Source: Roseivivax isoporae LMG 25204 (GTDB lineage Bacteria > Pseudomonadota > Alphaproteobacteria > Rhodobacterales > Rhodobacteraceae). Taken from it: 64,000 nt of DNA. A program made the translations under genes and the position numbers. Location: contig NZ_JAME01000005.1 in the NCBI RefSeq assembly GCF_000521865.1, positions 1 through 64,000 on the forward strand, in the 5' to 3' direction. The notes beneath the pieces are model-generated. The model saw only the letters and a program-made list of their open reading frames with translations, searched no databases and had not been told where the DNA came from. Shown in pieces: positions 19,610 through 41,477 of the stretch (its first letter is position 1; every line of letters starts with the position of its first letter).

Positions 19610-20800
19610 ATGACCCTGATCCCCGACATGCACGAGGCCGAGCCCATCCCGGCGGCCGCGCGTGCCGAGATCGAGCGCCTGATGCTGTCGGGCGACCTGT
19701 TCCGCTACACGTCGGAGGCGGCGAGCCCGGTGGCGCTCCTCGAACAGGAATTCGCCGACCTGCTGGGCGCGCGCTACGCGCTCGCGGTCTCGAGCTGTTC
19801 GGCCGCGCTGTTCCTGTCGATGAAGGCGCTCGGGCTGCCGCGCGACGCGCGGGTCATGATCCCGGCCTTCACCTTCGCGGCGGTGCCGTCCTCCGTGCTG
19901 CACGCGGAATGCCGGCCGGTGCTCTGCGAGGTGGGCGAGGATTACCGCATCGACCTCGACGATTTCGCGGCCAAGCTGCCGGGCGTCGATGCCGTCCTCA
20001 TCAGCCACATGCGCGGCCACACCTCGGACATGGACCGCATCATGGCGCTCTGCGATGCCGCCGGCGTCCCGGTGATCGAGGACGCCGCCCATTCGCTGGG
20101 GACGACCTGGGGCGGGCGCACCATCGGCACGATCGGGCGCATCGGCTGCTTCAGCTTCCAGAGCTACAAGCTCGTGAATGCCGGCGAGGGCGGGCTTCTC
20201 GTCACCGACGACGCGGACCTCATGGCGCGCGCGGTCATCATGTCGGGCGCCTACGAGCACAACTGGAAGAAGCACCCGGTCCTGCACGAGGCCTTCGCGC
20301 GCTGGCAGAACCGGCTGCCGCTCTACAACACGCGGCTGTCGAACCTGTCCGCCGCGGTCATCCGGCCGCAGCTGCCGCTGATCCCCGAGCGGGTGGCCCG
20401 CGGCCGGCGCAACCACGACCACGTGGCGGCACGGCTCGCGGCCTCGCCGTGGCTGCGGGTGCCCGAAAAGCTCGGGCCCGAGCAGCGCGCGCCGGACTCG
20501 CTCCAGTTCAACCTTGTGGGCATGTCGGACGAGGAGGTCACGGCCTTCGCCGCCGCGTCCGAGGCGAGCGGCGTCAAGGTGCAGGTCTTCGGCATGAGCC
20601 GCGACAATGCCCGGGCCTTCTGGAACTGGACGTTCATTCCCGACCTGCCCGAGCTGCCACAGACCCGCGCCATGCTCATGCGCGCCTGCGACACCCGCCT
20701 GCCCGCGCGGCTGTCGCTGCAGGACTGCGACGCCGTCGCCGACGTGCTGATCGCCGCCGCGGATCTGGTGATGGGACAGGTGCGCGCCTACGGGACCTGA
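19610..20800 (+). CDS. DegT/DnrJ/EryC1 family PLP-dependent aminotransferase
   Basis: The 396-residue protein has the fold-type I pattern of sugar aminotransferases: AVSSCSAALFLSMKALG near residue 59, IPAFTFAAVPS near 84, VIEDAAHSLGTTWGG near 154 and the PLP lysine in SFQSYKLVNAGEGG (Lys187). Such enzymes usually aminate keto sugars for surface polysaccharides or natural products, but no sugar-nucleotide genes surround it, so the substrate is open. ATG 19610 follows an AGGA-type ribosome site. Convergent with phaR, with only 15 bp between. Confidence 0.88.
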   Translation: MTLIPDMHEAEPIPAAARAEIERLMLSGDLFRYTSEAASPVALLEQEFADLLGARYALAVSSCSAALFLSMKALGLPRDARVMIPAFTFAAVPSSVLHAECRPVLCEVGEDYRIDLDDFAAKLPGVDAVLISHMRGHTSDMDRIMALCDAAGVPVIEDAAHSLGTTWGGRTIGTIGRIGCFSFQSYKLVNAGEGGLLVTDDADLMARAVIMSGAYEHNWKKHPVLHEAFARWQNRLPLYNTRLSNLSAAVIRPQLPLIPERVARGRRNHDHVAARLAASPWLRVPEKLGPEQRAPDSLQFNLVGMSDEEVTAFAAASEASGVKVQVFGMSRDNARAFWNWTFIPDLPELPQTRAMLMRACDTRLPARLSLQDCDAVADVLIAAADLVMGQVRAYGT

Positions 20801-20815
20801 GCGGTCCCGCGTGCG

Positions 20816-21361
20816 CTACTTGTTCATGCGCGCGAGCTTGCGCTGCAGCTCTGCGAGCTGGCGCTTGATCTCGTCGAGATCCTCACCCTCTTCGCGTTCG
20901 TCCTTGGGTCCGCTCGGCCAGCCCGCGTTGCCGCCGGTCATCGCCTTGAGGAAGGCCTCCTGCTGCGCCTGCATGGCCTCGAATCCGGGCATCTTCACCA
21001 TCGGGTTGATCGAGCTCATGTTCTCGACCCATTTCGACTGGCTGTCGCGGAACATCTCGAAGCTCGCAGCGAGGAATTGCGGCACGACCGAGGTCGCCTG
21101 CGTGGTGTAGCTGCGCACGAGGTCGGTCAGAACGTTGATCGGCAGCACGCTCTCGCCGCGACTTTCGTGCTCGGCCACGATCTGCAGGAGGTATTGCCGC
21201 GTCAGGTCGTCGCCGGACTTCAGGTCGACGATCTTGACGTCGCGCCCCTCCCGGATGAAGCCCGCGATGTCCTCGAGCGTGACGTAGTCGCTGGTTTCCG
21301 TGTTGTAGAGCCGGCGGCTCGCGTAACGCTTTATGAGAAGCGGCTTTTCGGCGTCGGACAC
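20816..21361 (-). CDS. phaR: Polyhydroxyalkanoate synthesis repressor PhaR
   Basis: A 181-residue protein with the PhaR DNA-binding region IKRYASRRLYNTETSDYVTLEDIAGFI at the N-terminus, the PHB accumulation regulatory domain around residues 75-115 (LPINVLTDLVRSYTTQATSVVPQFL), and a charged C-terminal helix. PhaR binds PHA granules and, when granules are absent, represses phasin genes and itself. Start is GTG 21361 with a GGAG ribosome site. It has its own terminator-separated position downstream of the phasin gene. Matching operators (CTGC-N3-GCAG) lie at the phasin and phaC/phaZ promoters. Confidence 0.95.
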   Translation of the reverse strand: MSDAEKPLLIKRYASRRLYNTETSDYVTLEDIAGFIREGRDVKIVDLKSGDDLTRQYLLQIVAEHESRGESVLPINVLTDLVRSYTTQATSVVPQFLAASFEMFRDSQSKWVENMSSINPMVKMPGFEAMQAQQEAFLKAMTGGNAGWPSGPKDEREEGEDLDEIKRQLAELQRKLARMNK

Positions 21362-21454
21362 GGTCGGACTCCCATCGACAGAGCAGGTGCAGAAAACCTT
21401 AGGCCAGCCCTTGCCGCACCTGCAAGGAATTCGTGCATCCCGCGCTGCCGATGC

Positions 21455-21485
21455 AAAAAAAGGCGCGCCGCCGGGGCGGTGCGCC
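21455..21485 (-). terminator. Rho-independent terminator of the first phasin gene
   Basis: An 11-bp GC stem (GGCGCGCCGCC with GGCGGTGCGCC, one G-T pair) is followed on the minus strand by seven T residues. It lies 63 bp beyond the phasin stop codon. Confidence 0.85.
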
Positions 21486-21547
21486 TGTGCAAGCGGGGCG
21501 GTGCGCGGGCGATCCCGGGGGACCGCACCGCGCGCCCTTATGCGCGT

Positions 21548-22024
21548 TTACTTGGACGCAGCGTCCGCAGCGGCAGCCGGTGCGGCGGCCGCGGCGCTTG
21601 CCGCGCGCTTCGTCGCGGTCGCGGCCTTCTTCGGTGCGGCCTCGGCGGCATCGGTCCAGGTCTTGCCAGCCGACATCAGAGCCTCGACCGTCGCGAGCTG
21701 CGCCGATTTCGCGACTTCGGCAAACTGCATGAACCGCTCGGACGCGGCCTCGGTCTGCGCGGTGGCGAAGCGGCTCATCGCCTCGACATAGGCGGCCGGG
21801 TCCGATTTCGCGCGGGTCAGCTCGGCGGTGTCGGCGAGCGTCTGCTTGGTCCACTGGGCGCTCAGCTCGGTGCTGCGGCCGGCGGCGTCGACGACGATGT
21901 TCGTCAGCGTCTCGTTCAGCTCGGCGCCGTGCTTGAAGCCGTTCTCGAACGCGTCGGCCTTGACCGGAAATGCGTTCATGGCGTCCTGGATCATCGTTTC
22001 GAAGTTCTGCGTCTGCTTGACCAT
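21548..22024 (-). CDS. Phasin family protein (first)
   Basis: A 158-residue amphipathic helical protein with the phasin_2 pattern: short start MVKQTQNFETMIQDAMNAFP, central helices with TELSAQWTKQTLADTAELTRAKSDPAAYVEAMSRF, and a repetitive Ala/Lys-rich C-terminus. Phasins coat polyhydroxyalkanoate granules and control their size. The ATG at 22024 has an AAAGGAG ribosome site. A vegetative-looking promoter and a PhaR operator lie upstream at 22090-22141. It is a paralogue of the phasin encoded at 22332-22790. Confidence 0.9.
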   Translation of the reverse strand: MVKQTQNFETMIQDAMNAFPVKADAFENGFKHGAELNETLTNIVVDAAGRSTELSAQWTKQTLADTAELTRAKSDPAAYVEAMSRFATAQTEAASERFMQFAEVAKSAQLATVEALMSAGKTWTDAAEAAPKKAATATKRAASAAAAAPAAAADAASK

Positions 22025-22089
22025 GATCGGTCTCCTTTCAGTGCGTCTGCGGCGGTGTGCTGGCGGGTGCCCCCGCGTCATCCACCACC

Positions 22090-22118
22090 GATATGGGCCT
22101 TGGCGCGAGTCGTTTCAA
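22090..22118 (-). promoter_or_regulatory. Promoter of the first phasin gene
   Basis: On the minus strand TTGAAA (22113-22118) and CATATC (22090-22095) are 17 bp apart. The same bases also fit a heat-shock promoter: CTTGAAA, 14 bp, then GCCCATAT against the sigma-32 consensus CCCCATNT. Either sigma factor could use it. Confidence 0.55.
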
Positions 22119-22126
22119 GGAATTTT

Positions 22127-22141
22127 TGCTGCGTTGCAGCA
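22127..22141. promoter_or_regulatory. PhaR operator, site A
   Basis: TGCTGC-GTT-GCAGCA, a perfect 15-bp dyad containing the PhaR core CTGC-N3-GCAG. It sits 8 bp upstream of the -35 element of the first phasin gene. Confidence 0.8.
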
Positions 22142-22253
22142 TAATTTTTATCATTTAAATTCAGCTTGTTGTAATACATAGACGCAGCGTGAGCGTGTTC
22201 GCGCCGCCCGAAATGCCGCGCTCGCACAGCAACCTTTCCGGGTGCCCGGGCAC

Positions 22254-22281
22254 AAAAAAGGCGGGCTCTTACGAGCCCGCC
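22254..22281 (-). terminator. Rho-independent terminator of the second phasin gene
   Basis: A perfect 9-bp stem GGCGGGCTC / GAGCCCGCC with a TTAC loop, followed on the minus strand by six T residues, 50 bp after the phasin stop codon. Confidence 0.9.
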
Positions 22282-22331
22282 AGAGAATCGCGCCACGAAT
22301 GGGAGGAGGTGTGGCGCAATCTGTCGTCAGG

Positions 22332-22790
22332 TCACTTCGCGGTGGCCGCGGCGGTGGCCTTCTTGGCGTTGGCGGTCATGTCCGTCGTCGCCTTCTTCAT
22401 CGCGGCGGCGGCGTCCTCGGTCATGTCCTTGCCGGCAGCCATCATCAGCTCGACGGTATCCATCTGGACCTTCTTCGCGATCTCGGCATAGGCCGCCATG
22501 TGCTCGGCGGTCATCTCGGCCTGCGCCGACGCGAAATCGGTCATCGCCTTCGCATAGTCGGCCGGCTCCGCCTTCGCCTTGGACATCTCGCTGAGCCGGG
22601 TCAGCGTGTCCTTGGTCCACTTGGCGGAAATCTCGGTCGACTTCTCCGCGGCTTCGAGAGCCACGCCCGACAGCTTCTCGTTGAGCGTCGCGGTGGTCTT
22701 GAAGGCATCTTCCATCGCGGCGGTATCCACCGGGAAGGCGCCCATCATGTCTTTCATCATCGATGCGAAGTCTTGCGTCTTGGCAGCCAT
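22332..22790 (-). CDS. Phasin family protein (second)
   Basis: A 152-residue phasin, paralogous to the one encoded at 21548-22024: MAAKTQDFASMMKDMMGAFP start, STEISAKWTKDTLTRLSEMSKAKAEPADYAKAMTDFA centre, and a Lys/Ala-rich tail. ATG 22790 is preferred because an AAGGG ribosome site lies at a proper distance; a GTG three codons upstream overlaps that site. Its promoter (22853-22881) has one PhaR operator exactly in the spacer and another just upstream, so control by PhaR should be tight. Confidence 0.9.
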   Translation of the reverse strand: MAAKTQDFASMMKDMMGAFPVDTAAMEDAFKTTATLNEKLSGVALEAAEKSTEISAKWTKDTLTRLSEMSKAKAEPADYAKAMTDFASAQAEMTAEHMAAYAEIAKKVQMDTVELMMAAGKDMTEDAAAAMKKATTDMTANAKKATAAATAK

Positions 22791-22852
22791 GTCATTCACC
22801 CTTTGCTTCAGAGCGGCGGGCCCACCCCACCGGTTGTTCCTAAGCTGACGTG

Positions 22853-22881
22853 AATATGCCTGCTGCAGCGCAGCATTTCAA
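22853..22881 (-). promoter_or_regulatory. Promoter of the second phasin gene
   Basis: On the minus strand TTGAAA (22876-22881) and CATATT (22853-22858) are separated by 17 bp, and the whole spacer (22859-22875) contains PhaR site B. Confidence 0.65.
22861..22875. promoter_or_regulatory. PhaR operator, site B
   Basis: TGCTGC-AGC-GCAGCA, the same 15-bp dyad as sites A and C, located between the -35 and -10 elements of the second phasin promoter. A bound repressor here would block RNA polymerase directly. Confidence 0.82.
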
Positions 22882-22888
22882 GCCCCGT

Positions 22889-22903
22889 TGCTGCGCCGCA
22901 GCA
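22889..22903. promoter_or_regulatory. PhaR operator, site C
   Basis: TGCTGC-GCC-GCAGCA, 7 bp upstream of the -35 element of the second phasin promoter and 28 bp after the phaC stop codon. Its centre is 28 bp from that of site B. Confidence 0.82.
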
Positions 22904-22931
22904 AAAAAGTGCTGACGCAGGGGAAAGCGGC

Positions 22932-24734
22932 TCAGCGGTTCGACCGCTGCGCCTTCACCTTGACGTATTCGCCGGGCGCCGGGCAGATCGGCGGGTGCTC
23001 CGCGCTGCCGGGCGCACGCGGCTCGACCCACTTGCCCGACCGCTTGGACAGCCAGCTTTCCCAGACCGGCCACCAGGACGTCTTGTGATAGGTCGCGCCC
23101 TCGAGCCATTCGTCGGCGCTGCCGGTGAGATCGTCGTTCACGTAGTGGCCGTACTTGTCCCGCGAGGGCGGATTGACGATCCCGGCGACGTGCCCCGATT
23201 CGGACATCAGGAACACGCGGTTGCGCGATCCGGTCCGCGACATGCCGCGGTAGCAGTCCTTCCACGCGGCGATGTGGTCGTTCTGGCAGGTCACCGCGAA
23301 GAGCGGCAGGTCGACGTCGCCGATCTGCAGCCTCTCGCCCATTAGGTCCACGCCCCCCTCGATGAAGGCGTTGTCCTGGCAGAGTTTGCGCAGGTACTGC
23401 ACCGTCATGCGGCCCGGCAGGTTCGACCCGTCCCCGTTCCAGTAGAGCAGGTCGAAGGCGGGGGGCGTCTCGCCCATCATGTAGGACTTGATGGCGGGCC
23501 CGTAGACCAGGTCGTTCGAGCGCAGGAACGACATGGTCCGCCCCAGGATCCACGATTTCAGGATGCCGGAGCGCTCGACCTCCGCCTCGATCCCGTCGAC
23601 GAAATCGTCCTGCAGGAACGGCGTGAACTCGCCCTGGTCCGAAAAGTCCGTCAGCGTCGTGAAGAAGGTCGCGGATTTCACCGACTTGTCGCCCCGGCGC
23701 TTCATCAGCGCGAGGGTCAGCGCCAGCGTGGTGCCCGCGATGCAGTAGCCGATCGCGTTCACCCGGTCCTGGCCGGTGACCTCGCGGGCCACGCGGATCG
23801 CCTCGAGGTAACCCTCCTCGATGTACTGGTCGAGGCCCACGTCGCGATAGGCGACGTCCGGATTGACCCAGCTGACCACGAACAGGGTGTAGCCCTGGTC
23901 GACCACCCAGCGGATGAAGCTGTTCGCGGGCTTGAGGTCGAGGATGTAGAACTTGTTGATCCACGGCGGGAAGAGGACGATCGGCGTCTCCTTCACCTTG
24001 TCCGTGGTGGGCGCGTACTGGATCAGCTCCATCATGCGGTTGCGGTAGACCACCTCGCCCTCGGCGGTGGCGATGTTCTCGCCGATCCGGAAGGCTTCCT
24101 CGTCCGCCAGCCGCACGACCAGCTCGCCGTTGTTGGCCTCGAGGTCGCTGATGAGGTTCTCGAGCCCCTTCACGAGGCTCTCGCCCTCGGTCTCGATCGC
24201 CTTCTCGAGCGCGTCCGGATTCGTCGAGAGGAAGTTCGTGGGCGCCATCATGTCGACGATCTGCCGCGTGAAGTACTTGAGCCGCCGCTTCTCCTTGGGC
24301 TCCATGTCCTCGATGTCGGCGACCGCCTGCTCGATCGCCTGCGAGTTGATCAGGTATTGCTGCTTGATGAAGTTGAAATAGGGATGGCTGTCCCAGAGCG
24401 GGTTGGCGAACCGGCGGTCCCGCGGACCCGGATCCTCGGGCGCCTGCAGCTTGCCCTTGGCCAGCGCCTGCTGTGCCTCGACGAAATGCGTGACCGATTT
24501 CGACCAGTACTCGATCTGGTGCTCCATCACCTTGGCGGGGTTCTGCATCCATTCCTGCCAGTACGCTGTCAGCGCCTTGGCATAGAGCTCCTGGCTCGGG
24601 CCGCTCAGGGACGGGTTCACCATCTTCTTCTGGGCCATGGCGCCGATCAGGCGCTGGGACAGTTCCTCGACCCGCTTGAGATTTGCTTTCAGCCTTTCGC
24701 TGTTGGCGTCTGCTGCTTTCATCTCAGTTGTCAT
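22932..24734 (-). CDS. phaC: Class I poly(3-hydroxyalkanoate) synthase
   Basis: A 600-residue PHA synthase, which polymerises 3-hydroxyacyl-CoA to polyester on the granule surface. The N-terminal helical domain is followed by the alpha/beta-hydrolase core; the lipase-like box is GYCIAG with nucleophile Cys331, and the conserved Asp and His appear in FAVTCQNDHIAAW and SESGHVAG. NPLWDSHPYFNFIKQQYL near residue 111 is typical of class I enzymes. It is divergent from phaZ and followed by phaP-type and phaR genes, a standard alphaproteobacterial layout. The ATG 24734 start puts MTTEMKAAD at the N-terminus. Confidence 0.96.
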   Translation of the reverse strand: MTTEMKAADANSERLKANLKRVEELSQRLIGAMAQKKMVNPSLSGPSQELYAKALTAYWQEWMQNPAKVMEHQIEYWSKSVTHFVEAQQALAKGKLQAPEDPGPRDRRFANPLWDSHPYFNFIKQQYLINSQAIEQAVADIEDMEPKEKRRLKYFTRQIVDMMAPTNFLSTNPDALEKAIETEGESLVKGLENLISDLEANNGELVVRLADEEAFRIGENIATAEGEVVYRNRMMELIQYAPTTDKVKETPIVLFPPWINKFYILDLKPANSFIRWVVDQGYTLFVVSWVNPDVAYRDVGLDQYIEEGYLEAIRVAREVTGQDRVNAIGYCIAGTTLALTLALMKRRGDKSVKSATFFTTLTDFSDQGEFTPFLQDDFVDGIEAEVERSGILKSWILGRTMSFLRSNDLVYGPAIKSYMMGETPPAFDLLYWNGDGSNLPGRMTVQYLRKLCQDNAFIEGGVDLMGERLQIGDVDLPLFAVTCQNDHIAAWKDCYRGMSRTGSRNRVFLMSESGHVAGIVNPPSRDKYGHYVNDDLTGSADEWLEGATYHKTSWWPVWESWLSKRSGKWVEPRAPGSAEHPPICPAPGEYVKVKAQRSNR

Positions 24735-24759
24735 CCGAGGCGTTCCCCCCTAAGATTCG

Positions 24760-24770
24760 CTGCTGTGCAG
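24760..24770. promoter_or_regulatory. PhaR operator, site D (core only)
   Basis: CTGC-TGT-GCAG in the 112-bp region between divergent phaC and phaZ. It keeps the 11-bp core but not the outer TG/CA of sites A-C, so affinity may be lower. It could act on both genes. Confidence 0.6.
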
Positions 24771-24846
24771 AAACGGTCGCCGGCCGCCGGACAAGCGAAG
24801 CGACCTCATGGCCCGGGCTCCGGTTCGGGGAAAGGAGCGGCAAACC

Positions 24847-26115
24847 ATGCGCTACATGGCCACTTACGATTTGATGGAAACCATCCGCAACACGAACCAG
24901 TGGCTCGGCGCTACGGCGCGAACGATCGCATCCTACCCGCATTTCGCGCTGCTTCCGAACCCGATGATCCGCTGGATGGCGGCATGGGGCGAGGTGACGG
25001 AGCGCACGTTCGAACGCATGATCGCCAAGCCCGACTGGGGCATCGGCAGCTTCACCTGCGACGACGGACGCGATCACCTGGTCCATCCGCGCACCGTGGT
25101 GCAGCTTCCCTTCGGAGACCTGATCCATTTCGAGGTGGCCGGACGCGCCCCGCAGCCGCGCAAGATCCTGCTCGTGGCACCGATGTCGGGCCATTACGCG
25201 ACGCTCCTCCGCTCGACCGTCAAATCCCTGATCGTCAATTGTGAAGTCTATGTCACCGACTGGAAGAATGCGAGGGACATTCCGGTCAGCGCGGGCAAGT
25301 TCGACGTCGAGGATTACACCCTCTATCTCGTTCACTTCATGAAGCATCTGGGCCCGGACACCCACGTGATCGCGGTCTGCCAGCCGGCGCCGCTGACACT
25401 CGCCGCGACCGCCTACCTCGCCGAGGAGGCGCCCGAGGCGCAGCCCCGGACGCTGACGCTCATCGGCGGGCCGATCGACCCCGACGCGACGCCGACCGAC
25501 GTCACCGATTTCGGCCGGCGCGTCACCATGGGCCAGCTCGAGGAGACGATGTGCCAGCGCGTCGGCTTCAAGCATGCGGGCGTCGGGCGACGGGTCTATC
25601 CCGGCCTGCTGCAGCTCGCGTCCTTCATGTCGATGAACGCCGACCGCCATTCCTCCGCCTTCACCGAGCAGATCCTGCGCGTGGCACGGGGCGAGGCGTC
25701 GGATTACGACCCGCACAACAAGTTCTACGACGAGTACCTCGCCGTGATGGACATGCCGGCCGAGTTCTACCTCTCGACGGTCGAGCGCATATTCAAGAAC
25801 CGCGAGATCGCGCGGAACGTCTTCTCCGTCGAGGGCAAGCGCGTGGACATCGGCAAGATCACCACCGTGGCGGTCAAGACGGTCGAGGGCGCCAACGACG
25901 ACATCTCGGCGCCGGGCCAGTGCATCGCGGCGCTCGACCTCCTGACCGGCCTTCCGGCCGAGAAGAAGGCGAGCCACCTCGAGCCCGGCGCGGGCCATTA
26001 CGGCATCTTCGCGGGCAAGAGCTGGCGCAACAACATCCGGCCGCTGGTGCTGGACTTCATCGGGCGCAATTCCGAGGGCCCCCTGCCCCGCAGCGGGCTG
26101 ACCGTCGTCAACTGA
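24847..26115 (+). CDS. phaZ: Intracellular polyhydroxyalkanoate depolymerase
   Basis: A 422-residue protein of the intracellular PhaZ family, which mobilises stored polyester. The N-terminus MRYMATYDLMETIRNTNQWLGA and the segment VYVTDWKNARDIP are characteristic. The nucleophile is the cysteine in VCQPAP (Cys178) instead of a GxSxG serine, as known for this family; the likely His is in LEPGAGHYGIFAG near the C-terminus. ATG 24847 follows an excellent AAAGGAG ribosome site. A GC-rich hairpin begins 7 bp after the stop. Confidence 0.94.
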   Translation: MRYMATYDLMETIRNTNQWLGATARTIASYPHFALLPNPMIRWMAAWGEVTERTFERMIAKPDWGIGSFTCDDGRDHLVHPRTVVQLPFGDLIHFEVAGRAPQPRKILLVAPMSGHYATLLRSTVKSLIVNCEVYVTDWKNARDIPVSAGKFDVEDYTLYLVHFMKHLGPDTHVIAVCQPAPLTLAATAYLAEEAPEAQPRTLTLIGGPIDPDATPTDVTDFGRRVTMGQLEETMCQRVGFKHAGVGRRVYPGLLQLASFMSMNADRHSSAFTEQILRVARGEASDYDPHNKFYDEYLAVMDMPAEFYLSTVERIFKNREIARNVFSVEGKRVDIGKITTVAVKTVEGANDDISAPGQCIAALDLLTGLPAEKKASHLEPGAGHYGIFAGKSWRNNIRPLVLDFIGRNSEGPLPRSGLTVVN

Positions 26116-26122
26116 CGCCATG

Positions 26123-26148
26123 CGCGCGCCCGGTCCGGCGGGCGCGCG
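26123..26148 (+). terminator. GC hairpin after phaZ
   Basis: CGCGCGCCC and GGGCGCGCG form a perfect 9-bp stem with an 8-nt loop just after the phaZ stop. No T-run follows, so it may be a weak terminator or an mRNA 3' stabiliser between convergent genes. Confidence 0.45.
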
Positions 26149-26211
26149 GCCATCCAGCCGACCTGAACCATCCCGTGCCATCGCGCCCCTCCCCTGGCGC
26201 GCGGCGGCGTC

Positions 26212-27180
26212 TCAGCGCTCGGCGGCAAAGACCATGTCGATCATGGCCTGGGTGCCGCGCGAGAACTCCAGCGGACAGGGATAGGGCGTCCCGTCGCGCA
26301 CGCTGGAATTGAATGCCTCCACCTGCCGCACGTAGTGATTGTCCCGCGGGAAACGCTCTGTCGTCACGCGCTGTTCCGAATCCTGCAGGATCACCATCGC
26401 CTGGCCGTAGACCATGGGATTGAACGGTGCGGTCAGCCGCAGGATGCCGCGCTCGCCGTGGAACACCATCTCCTGATAGGGCGCCATGCGCATGGACGTG
26501 TAGCCGGTGAACAGGAACGACGGGAACCGCGCCGCCACGTGGGCGCGCACGTCGACGCCGTTCTCGCGCGCAATGTCGGCGAACAGAACCTCCTCGGGTT
26601 CTTCCCCGGTCACGAAGCGGGTGGAGCCGTAGGTGTAGACGCCGATGTCGGGAATGCCGCCGCCGCCCATCTCCGGCCGGTTGCGGATGTTGGACGCATC
26701 GGGGTTGTTGTAGCTGAAAGCCGCGTTCACCGCGACGAGCCGCCCGATCGCACCGTCCTCGTAGAGCGCCTTGGCGCGCTGCCATTGCGGGTGGTGCACG
26801 ATCATGTAGGCCTCGGCCGCCAGCAGGCCGGTGCGGTTGCGCAGCGCGATCAGGTCGTCGAACTGCCCGGCCTCCATCGCGAGCGGCTTCTCGCAGAGAA
26901 CATGCTTGCCCGCCTCCAGCGCCTTGCGGGTGTATTCCACGTGCAGGCTGTTCGGCAGCGGGATGTAGACCGCGTCGATGTCCTCGCTCGCCAGCAGCGC
27001 GTCGTAGTCGTTGAAAACCATGAGGCCGGGAGCGAAGTCGGCGAAGGGCGCAGCCTTTCCGGCGGTCGACGTGGCGAGCGCGGTCAGCGCGCCGCCCCGG
27101 GCGGCGTGGATCGCCGGACCCATCTGCGTCAGCGCGAAGTTTGCGGCGCCGAGGATGCCCCAGCGAACGTGATCGGCCAT
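26212..27180 (-). CDS. Gfo/Idh/MocA family oxidoreductase
   Basis: A 322-residue NAD(P)-dependent dehydrogenase. The Rossmann motif GILGAANFALTQMGPAI lies at residues 8-24, and the family's catalytic lysine motif CEKPLAM is near residue 95, followed by the C-terminal alpha/beta domain with EAYMIVHHPQW and GGGGIPDIGVYTYGSTR, where D and Y/H typically bind sugar hydroxyls. Related enzymes oxidise sugars, inositols or diols such as trans-dihydrodiols. The substrate is unknown. It is convergent with phaZ and apparently monocistronic. Confidence 0.88.
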   Translation of the reverse strand: MADHVRWGILGAANFALTQMGPAIHAARGGALTALATSTAGKAAPFADFAPGLMVFNDYDALLASEDIDAVYIPLPNSLHVEYTRKALEAGKHVLCEKPLAMEAGQFDDLIALRNRTGLLAAEAYMIVHHPQWQRAKALYEDGAIGRLVAVNAAFSYNNPDASNIRNRPEMGGGGIPDIGVYTYGSTRFVTGEEPEEVLFADIARENGVDVRAHVAARFPSFLFTGYTSMRMAPYQEMVFHGERGILRLTAPFNPMVYGQAMVILQDSEQRVTTERFPRDNHYVRQVEAFNSSVRDGTPYPCPLEFSRGTQAMIDMVFAAER

Positions 27181-40430: not shown

Positions 40431-41477
40431 TCAGGCCCCGGGGAACCGGGCACGGGTCCGGTTGGCGAAGGCGACGAGCGACAGCATGACCGGGACCTCC
40501 ACGAGGACACCCACCACCGTGGCGAGGGCGGCGCCCGAATTGAGGCCGAAGAGGCTGATCGCGACCGCCACCGCGAGCTCGAAGAAGTTCGAGGTGCCGA
40601 TCATCGCGCAGGGCGCGGCGATGCGGTGCGGCACCCGCAGCCACCACGCCGCGCCGTAGGCCAGCGCGAAGATCGCGTAGCTCTGGATCAGGATCGGCAC
40701 GGCGATCAGGACGATGGTCAGCGGCCGCTCGAGGATGACGCTGCCCTGCAGCCCGAAGAGGATCGCGACGGTGGCCACGAGCCCCACCACCGAGGCCGGC
40801 TTGACCCGCGCGGTGAAGGCGTCGATGCGCGCCGGCGACCCGAGCGCCCGGCGCGTCAGCAGGCCCGCGACGAGCGGCAGCACCACGTAGAGAAGCGTCG
40901 CCAGCACCAGCGTCTCCCACGGCACCTCGATCTCGGTCACCCCGAGCAGAAGCGCCACGATGGGCGCGAAGGCGACGATCATGATCAGGTCGTTCACCGA
41001 CACCTGCACGAGCGTGTAGGTCTCGTCCCCGCGCGTGAGCTGCGACCAGACGAAGACCATCGCGGTGCAGGGCGCGGCGCCGAGCAGGATCAGCCCCGCG
41101 ATGTATTGCGCGGCATCCTCGGGGGCGATGAAGCGCGCGAAGACGACCTCGAAGAACAGGACCGCGAGCGCCGCCATGGTGAAGGGCTTGATCAGCCAGT
41201 TCACGACGAGCGTCACGATCAGCCCCCGCGGCTGCCGCGCGACACCCGCGACCGAACCGAAATCGACGCCCACCATCATCGGGTAGACCATCGCCCAGAT
41301 CAGCACCGCGACCACGAGGTTGATCTGCGCCACTTCGGCGCCGGCGATCGCCGTCACGACGCCCGGCGCCAGTTGCCCGAGCCCGATCCCCGCGATCATG
41401 GCCAGCGCGACCCAGAGGCTCAGCCAGCGTTCGAACCCGCCCATTGCGGGCGGGGCAGTGTCGGTCGTTCGGGTCAC
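40431..41477 (-). CDS. acr3: Arsenite efflux transporter, ACR3 family
   Basis: A 348-residue membrane protein with about ten hydrophobic segments. The ACR3 signature [21 protein letters not shown], with the conserved cysteine needed for arsenite transport, lies near residue 128, and [11 protein letters not shown] near 65 and [19 protein letters not shown] near 300 are also family motifs. It exports arsenite using the proton gradient. Start is GTG 41477 with an AAGGAG ribosome site. It lies 60 bp downstream of the arsR-arsC fusion. Confidence 0.95.

Follow-up and report, generated by a model that had tools for sequence, protein, structure and literature searches.

The operators of PhaR, the repressor that responds to polyhydroxybutyrate (PHB), have been described in several bacteria. 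In Rhodobacter sphaeroides the operator is 5'-CTGCNNNGCAG-3' (cited in PMC12542648), a TGC-rich region being given for this species (strain 2.4.1) and for Paracoccus denitrificans (PMC10888616), and PhaR repression of phaZ is cited for R. sphaeroides in PMC6201568. The PhaR of Sinorhizobium meliloti (AniA) has two sites around the -35 of both phaP1 and phaP2, 18 base pairs (bp) apart in the former and 28 bp in the latter by the coordinates listed; its motif contains YGCRNYGCR (R, purine; Y, pyrimidine; N, any base), the depolymerase site lies between the -10 and the start, and the phaZ promoter is PhaR-repressed (PMC12542648). For Bradyrhizobium diazoefficiens the consensus is TGCRNYGCASMA, with an R-N-Y spacer from footprints, and two sites flank the -35 of phaP1 (PMC6201568). 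The Ralstonia eutropha consensus, YTKNTGCRNYGCANMAR, has an R-N-Y centre, and phaP1 carries two sites, the first immediately ahead of the -35 and the second around the start site (PMC12849132). We analysed the polyhydroxyalkanoate (PHA) locus of Roseivivax isoporae LMG 25204 in a stretch of 64,000 nucleotides (contig NZ_JAME01000005.1, positions 1 to 64,000; hereafter the window), in which an earlier prediction, made from the letters alone, had placed four PhaR sites. On the minus strand the genes are ordered phaC, phasin2, phasin1 and phaR, phaZ being divergent from phaC.

Our reading, to which we assign a probability of roughly 0.8, is that the three dyads at the phasin genes are PhaR operators and that the fourth site, at 24760, is a PhaR operator too, weaker and off-consensus, which overlies the beginning of the predicted phaZ promoter. 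That PhaR binds such sites, is captured by PHB and represses phasin genes and phaZ is known from the published systems of relatives; its binding to the four sites here, the weakness of 24760, the choice of gene served by that site and the unequal control of the two phasins are inferred. The original prediction had named the consensus after P. denitrificans, which is imprecise: the operator cited is that of R. sphaeroides, and it is the TGC-rich region that is given for P. denitrificans.

Dyads at the phasin promoters

Three perfect 15-bp dyads TGCTGC-N3-GCAGCA were found where predicted, at 22127-22141, 22861-22875 and 22889-22903, as was a core dyad CTGC-N3-GCAG at 24760-24770. All four lie in short gaps, which can now be specified as those upstream of phasin1 (22127) and of phasin2 (22861 and 22889), and the divergent phaC/phaZ gap (24760). 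The further remark that no other site was noticed in the window is true of the perfect 15-mer but not of the core, which is also found at 40741 and, inside the 3' end of phaZ, at 26083. The window total of 6 cores compares with a mean of 2.69 in shuffled sequences, of which 2 in 100 reach 6. Throughout the genome (4.9 Mb in 203 contigs) the perfect dyad occurs 7 times, versus once for a reversed control pattern; the corresponding sums are 106 versus 5 over 37 genomes of the family, and 14 versus 5 over 24 class-level genomes. At the density of the own genome, at least three perfect dyads within 2,644 bp would be expected with P ~9e-9 and at least four cores with P ~7e-7, the region having been chosen after the fact.

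Could the dyads be chance palindromes in GC-rich DNA? In favour of this, the core is common genome-wide, and its count, which had been proposed as a check, reveals no enrichment (120 versus 201 for the reversed control). A core count could thus not have revealed the regulon, and conservation and position have to decide. These were followed in 108 loci, namely the window, 30 phaC regions of relatives and 80 named loci (111 in all, minus 3 duplicates), leaving out the second phaC of one genome (L084, of G010) and the phaR-only loci (L088-L092). Of 193 matches to the window PhaC the best 80 were taken as the named loci, which favours close relatives, and the loci are not independent. Start codons for the gap analysis were extrapolated from tblastn. 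An alignable phasin adjoins phaC in 107 of the 108 loci (L086 has none there), which gives 107 phasin gaps; L085 lacks sequence upstream of phaC, which brings the phaC/phaZ gaps to 107 as well (108 in the dyad comparison), and phaR lies within the fetched stretch in 98 loci.

The search of relatives bore out the expected conservation for the phasin genes, the core being present in 104 of the 107 phasin gaps (two sites in 70 loci, one in 34, none in 3). The best other of the 256 dyads of the same form reached 20 phasin gaps, 10 phaC/phaZ gaps and 4 phaR upstream stretches, and the core halves are rare at other spacer lengths in the 108 loci. The paired sites lie 26-30 bp apart in all 70 loci, and 28 bp apart in 30 of them; in the 34 single-site gaps the other place often holds a near-match. 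Fixed promoter positions in most of the 108 loci, with every other dyad of this form far behind, and the excess of the perfect dyad over its control in the own genome argue against chance, which conservation rejects for the phasin sites; since the core at the fourth site is also kept in 64 of 107 loci, we regard chance as an extremely improbable explanation.

The predicted phasin2 promoter (22853..22881, minus strand), which was found by a consensus scan and is conserved in relatives, consists of TTGAAA (22881-22876), 17 bp and CATATT (22858-22853). When the phasin promoters with enough flank (65 of the 70 site pairs) were aligned on the proximal dyad, the consensus was CTTGAaaTGCTGCg.tGCAGCAtgcATATt, with TTG at the -35 in all 65 (TTGAAA in 39) and CATATT at the -10 in 33. 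The proximal dyad (22861..22875, spacer AGC) thus fills the 17-bp promoter spacer, and the distal dyad (22889..22903, spacer GCC), 28 bp away, stands just upstream of the -35. The phasin1 promoter (22090..22118, minus strand), read from the sequence and not reported by the consensus scan, would comprise TTGAAA (22118-22113), 17 bp free of any dyad and CATATC (22095-22090), with the perfect dyad at 22127..22141 (spacer GTT) upstream of its -35. In all five two-phasin Roseivivax loci phasin1 is arranged in this way, with a single dyad ahead of a TTG -35 and a dyad-free spacer after it.

All three phasin dyads contain TGC-RNY-GCA and are placed so as to block the predicted phasin promoters. Their conservation, their promoter geometry and their match to the published PhaR consensus make them very probably PhaR operators. 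The locus itself encodes this PHB-sensing repressor: with PHB absent, PhaR on the two phasin2 dyads, one filling the promoter spacer and the other upstream of the -35, would keep RNA polymerase off, and repression of phasin1, with its single upstream dyad, would probably be looser. As PHB granules form, PhaR would relocate to them and the phasins would be made. At 24760, a weaker operator over the phaZ promoter start, perhaps acting on phaC too, would allow the depolymerase to be released in step with PHB.

The core dyad between phaC and phaZ

The core dyad at 24760..24770 differs from the perfect dyad at 2 arm positions and, its spacer being TGT (ACA on the phaC strand), does not contain TGC-RNY-GCA. 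It follows the -10 of a predicted phaZ promoter by 3 bp and stands 25 bp away from the phaC start; the promoter (24728..24756, plus strand; TTGTCA over the phaC start codon, 17 bp, TAAGAT) was identified by the consensus scan and in relatives. The conservation expected of this fourth site was found in part, the core being present in 64 of the 107 phaC/phaZ gaps and lacking in the remainder. Its position is conserved, the distance to the phaC start being 23-25 bp in 50 of these 64 loci, and TTGNCA stands in register on the phaZ strand in 63 of them, at a 17-bp spacing in 55 of the 63.

This distance to phaC may also suggest that the site serves phaC and not phaZ; PhaR, sitting 25 bp ahead of the phaC start, would then block expression of the synthase. 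Consistent with such a role, phaC2 and phaC5 of B. diazoefficiens are PhaR-repressed (PMC10888616), and 15 of the 64 loci have, on the phaC strand, a promoter over the dyad with at least 8 of 12 consensus matches. In the window, however, that promoter reaches just 6 of 12. On the phaZ strand a promoter with at least 8 of 12 matches is seen in 63 of 64 loci versus 6.5% of shuffles, though here the phaC start codon dictates the -35. Moreover, phbC of S. meliloti is neither bound nor regulated by PhaR (PMC12542648). A role confined to phaC seems to us rather unlikely.

The spacers set the phaC/phaZ sites apart. R-N-Y is found in all 94 distal, all 81 proximal and all 5 phasin1 sites and in 20 of the 21 sites near phaR (200 of 201), and is kept in 42 of 47 phasin sites with one mismatch; the 64 phaC/phaZ cores, read on the phaC strand, are R-N-R in 59 cases, R-N-Y in 3 and Y-N-Y in 2. 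Across the 107 phaC/phaZ gaps, 61 hold perfect halves with a spacer other than R-N-Y, 3 hold perfect halves with R-N-Y, 12 hold one-mismatch sites (6 of them R-N-Y) and 31 hold no site at up to one mismatch, although the form CTGC-N4-GCR is present in 14 of these 31. The spacer contrast between perfect and one-mismatch sites gives p ~3e-4, four of the six one-mismatch R-N-Y sites belonging to close congeners. On the phaC strand the window has CTGC-ACA-GCAG and its four two-phasin congeners have CTGC-RNY-GCGG. Whatever their form, sites in this gap thus almost always deviate from the ideal operator. The idea of four sites of one kind is not supported, as 24760 belongs to this other class.

Such a difference would also arise if the class of 24760 were not a PhaR operator at all, but were read by another regulator recognising CTGC, an R-Y-R spacer and GC[AG]G. 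The published PhaR consensus sequences demand R-N-Y (PMC6201568, PMC12849132), and the unbound phbC of S. meliloti points the same way as the 59 of 64 R-N-R spacers. Against this, the site shares its outer letters and N3 length with the PhaR dyad and adjoins PhaR-controlled genes, and a strict R-N-R reader would refuse the six one-mismatch sites that have R-N-Y. The spacer can also be explained by a start-site requirement: on the phaZ strand it is Y-R-Y in 58 of the 64 loci, the predicted phaZ start would fall near the dyad centre, and a Y-R initiator would fit it. Another regulator is in our view unlikely, and 24760 is most likely a weakened, tuned-down PhaR operator.

Several points weigh against this reading of 24760, in addition to the missing genome-wide excess of the core and to phbC of S. 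meliloti. (i) With R-N-Y broken in 61 of 64 phaC/phaZ sites, PhaR may not bind them, and 31 of the 107 gaps have no site at up to one mismatch. (ii) The phaC start codon, read in reverse, supplies the phaZ -35, which leaves the -10 alone as free evidence, and a -10 with at least 4 of 6 matches occurs in 43% of cases versus 21% in shuffles, a modest difference. (iii) The 15 loci with a phaC-strand promoter over the dyad speak for the other gene. (iv) All locus counts are raw and uncorrected for relatedness.

One might speculate, more tentatively, and at somewhat less than even odds, that the Rhodobacteraceae maintain two classes of operator that share their outer dyad. The class at the phasin genes, and at phaR, would have an R-N-Y spacer; that at phaC/phaZ would read purine-pyrimidine-purine on the phaC strand and be kept off the PhaR consensus by selection. 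This second class would either give PhaR a threshold of its own, lower and with the phaZ start site at its centre, the operator's own spacer then being the Y-R initiator, or be read by a different regulator.

Two other candidates were rejected. An ATG just ahead of the dyad in many loci prompted that of a leader peptide before phaC; as the distance to phaC is 23, 24 or 25 bp across loci, no frame is kept, and at least 18 of the 64 loci have TT ahead of the core, which also counts against it. An RNA hairpin over the phaC dyad has little stability compared with shuffled sequences, of which 192 in 200 fold at least as well (z 1.50).

The genes of the locus and dyads elsewhere

The product of phaR (20816..21361, minus strand) scores 153.6 bits against TIGR01848 (cut-off 109.45) and has the domains PHB_acc_N and PHB_acc (Pfam PF07879 and PF05233), as a member of the PhaR family, the PHB-responsive repressor. 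The class I PHA synthase gene phaC (22932..24734, minus strand) reaches 743.7 bits with TIGR01838 (cut-off 622.65), and the PHB depolymerase gene phaZ (24848..26115, plus strand) 561.7 bits with TIGR01849 (cut-off 300.75), scored on the frame open from 24808; the start at 24848 was picked by eye via the ribosome-binding site. The main phasin, phasin2 (22332..22790, minus strand), and its duplicate with 47% identity, phasin1 (21548..22024, minus strand), match Phasin_2 at E 3.1e-4 and 4.6e-4 respectively, both under Pfam's cut-off. A terminator-like hairpin with a T run lies 3' of phasin2 (22260-22281, minus strand), which suggests separate transcription of the two phasins. Rfam gave no match in 20500-26500 at the gathering threshold, and the one match of a PDB sequence search, an alphabody (E 7e-4), was judged spurious.

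The absence of a perfect site before phaR had been singled out because PhaR usually represses itself. It is true of the window, where the operator expected in front of an autoregulated gene is replaced by a half-site, CTGCACCTGC (21383..21392, minus strand), read from the sequence 21 bp upstream of the phaR start. It is less notable among relatives: the core occurs upstream of phaR in 22 of 98 stretches, one of them far from the start, which leaves near sites in 21, and in S. meliloti PhaR binding at phaR is weak and its effect slight (PMC12542648). R. halodurans (L057) and R. sediminis (L060) share CTGCACCTGC, and CTGCACCGCAG stands at the same place in R. halotolerans (L061) and another congener (L062). 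The half-site is now a direct repeat, CTGC-AC-CTGC, which is also seen upstream of phaC in several dyad-less relatives (e.g. L166, L172, L175).

Outside the main PHA locus, the perfect dyads among the matches listed (4 from the own genome and 60 from relatives, those of G012, G015, G020, G023 and G034 and the class-level sites being left out) have R-N-Y spacers in 40 cases, Y-N-R in 6 and others in 18; for core sites outside the gaps of the 108 loci the figures are 13, 12 and 22. The excess of 40 over 6 (p ~3e-7, a test weakened by near-copies among the 60 fetched loci, e.g. L197/L199, L237/L238 and L247/L250) points to PhaR-type sites beyond the PHB genes. The four in the own genome lie (i) before sat (ATP sulphurylase), 5 kb past the window (C5:69006, L053:5507; spacer AAC), (ii) at a contig end (C7:117; GTC), (iii) within a long open frame (C48:14534; CTG) and (iv) ending 83 bp upstream of a DUF1127 gene (PF06568; C54:14910, L056:4911; ATA). 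Among nine Roseivivax sat upstream stretches the core is present in that of the own genome alone, and three have a one-mismatch site at 107-133 bp. A third phasin gene, not linked to the others, is present in four congeners (G008, G002, G007 and G001), with perfect R-N-Y dyads in its upstream gap (L237, L238, L244, L245, L248), an observation in favour of the main reading; a search of the own genome for a third phasin matched phasin1 and phasin2 solely, so that this gene is absent. Other neighbours of perfect dyads are patatin-like genes (named by eye) in two genomes, a phaC-like gene in G033 and G021, and an ecm-like gene, which is taken up below.

DUF1127-related small genes form the largest neighbour cluster of perfect dyads (6 of the 64 loci). 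With the own gene as query, 30 DUF1127 loci (L253-L282) have the core upstream in 9, the next best dyad reaching 3. The spacer is AT[AG] in 8 of the 9, and in 18 upstream sequences, picked with a loose pattern, the dyad sits within a longer motif, aTGCa.ttgctGCAT.GCaGCaTTG, often followed by ATTGTGCA. On these two grounds the class was not counted as PhaR-type and PhaR control of DUF1127 genes was rejected, except for L282 (G021), whose gene has tandem R-N-Y core dyads 19 bp apart directly before its start. A LysR-type reader of the longer motif was considered; the one paper checked gives no motif. For an ecm-like mutase gene (named by eye), the core is present in 4 of 30 upstream stretches (L357-L386), where CTGC ranks third of 256 dyads (ATTG and CCGC, 6 each) and finds no support; CCGC-RNY-GCAGCGAATTGACA stands beside a perfect -35 in 11 of the 30, pointing to a PhaR-type site with one mismatch. 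Neither this form nor the core is seen there in the own genome (L365).

Relation to described PhaR systems

If correct, the preferred reading yields a rule, open to test, by which a PHB-sensing repressor could rank its targets: a double lock on the main phasin, a single lock on its duplicate and an off-consensus lock between synthase and depolymerase. Should the phaC/phaZ class truly be weaker, the spacer letters alone would order the release of PHB genes, which could be useful for bioplastic strains; the locus otherwise exemplifies known PhaR control, cleanly and in well-conserved form. The off-consensus phaC/phaZ class is possibly the single new point in a system otherwise of known kind: the two spacer classes were not named in the literature titles and abstract openings searched, most subscription papers lying outside that search.

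The likeness to R. sphaeroides is close, with an identical core, the same family of organisms and a site upstream of the phasin genes. The phasin gene of R. sphaeroides likewise carries a pair of such sites, spaced by about 28 bp. In contrast to that system, the arms and spacer classes are here resolved over many genomes, and the phaC/phaZ sites are a class of their own. S. meliloti shares the paired sites around the phasin -35, the depolymerase site and the weak autoregulation of phaR; it differs in a looser motif with AT-rich arms and in its unregulated phbC. B. diazoefficiens has the same R-N-Y spacer and two phasin sites around the -35, but its right arm is often CACAA and the regulon reported there is wide. 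The betaproteobacterium R. eutropha likewise has a phasin site upstream of the -35 and an R-N-Y centre, but its palindrome is longer and more degenerate, and its PhaR is reported also to activate phaP3.

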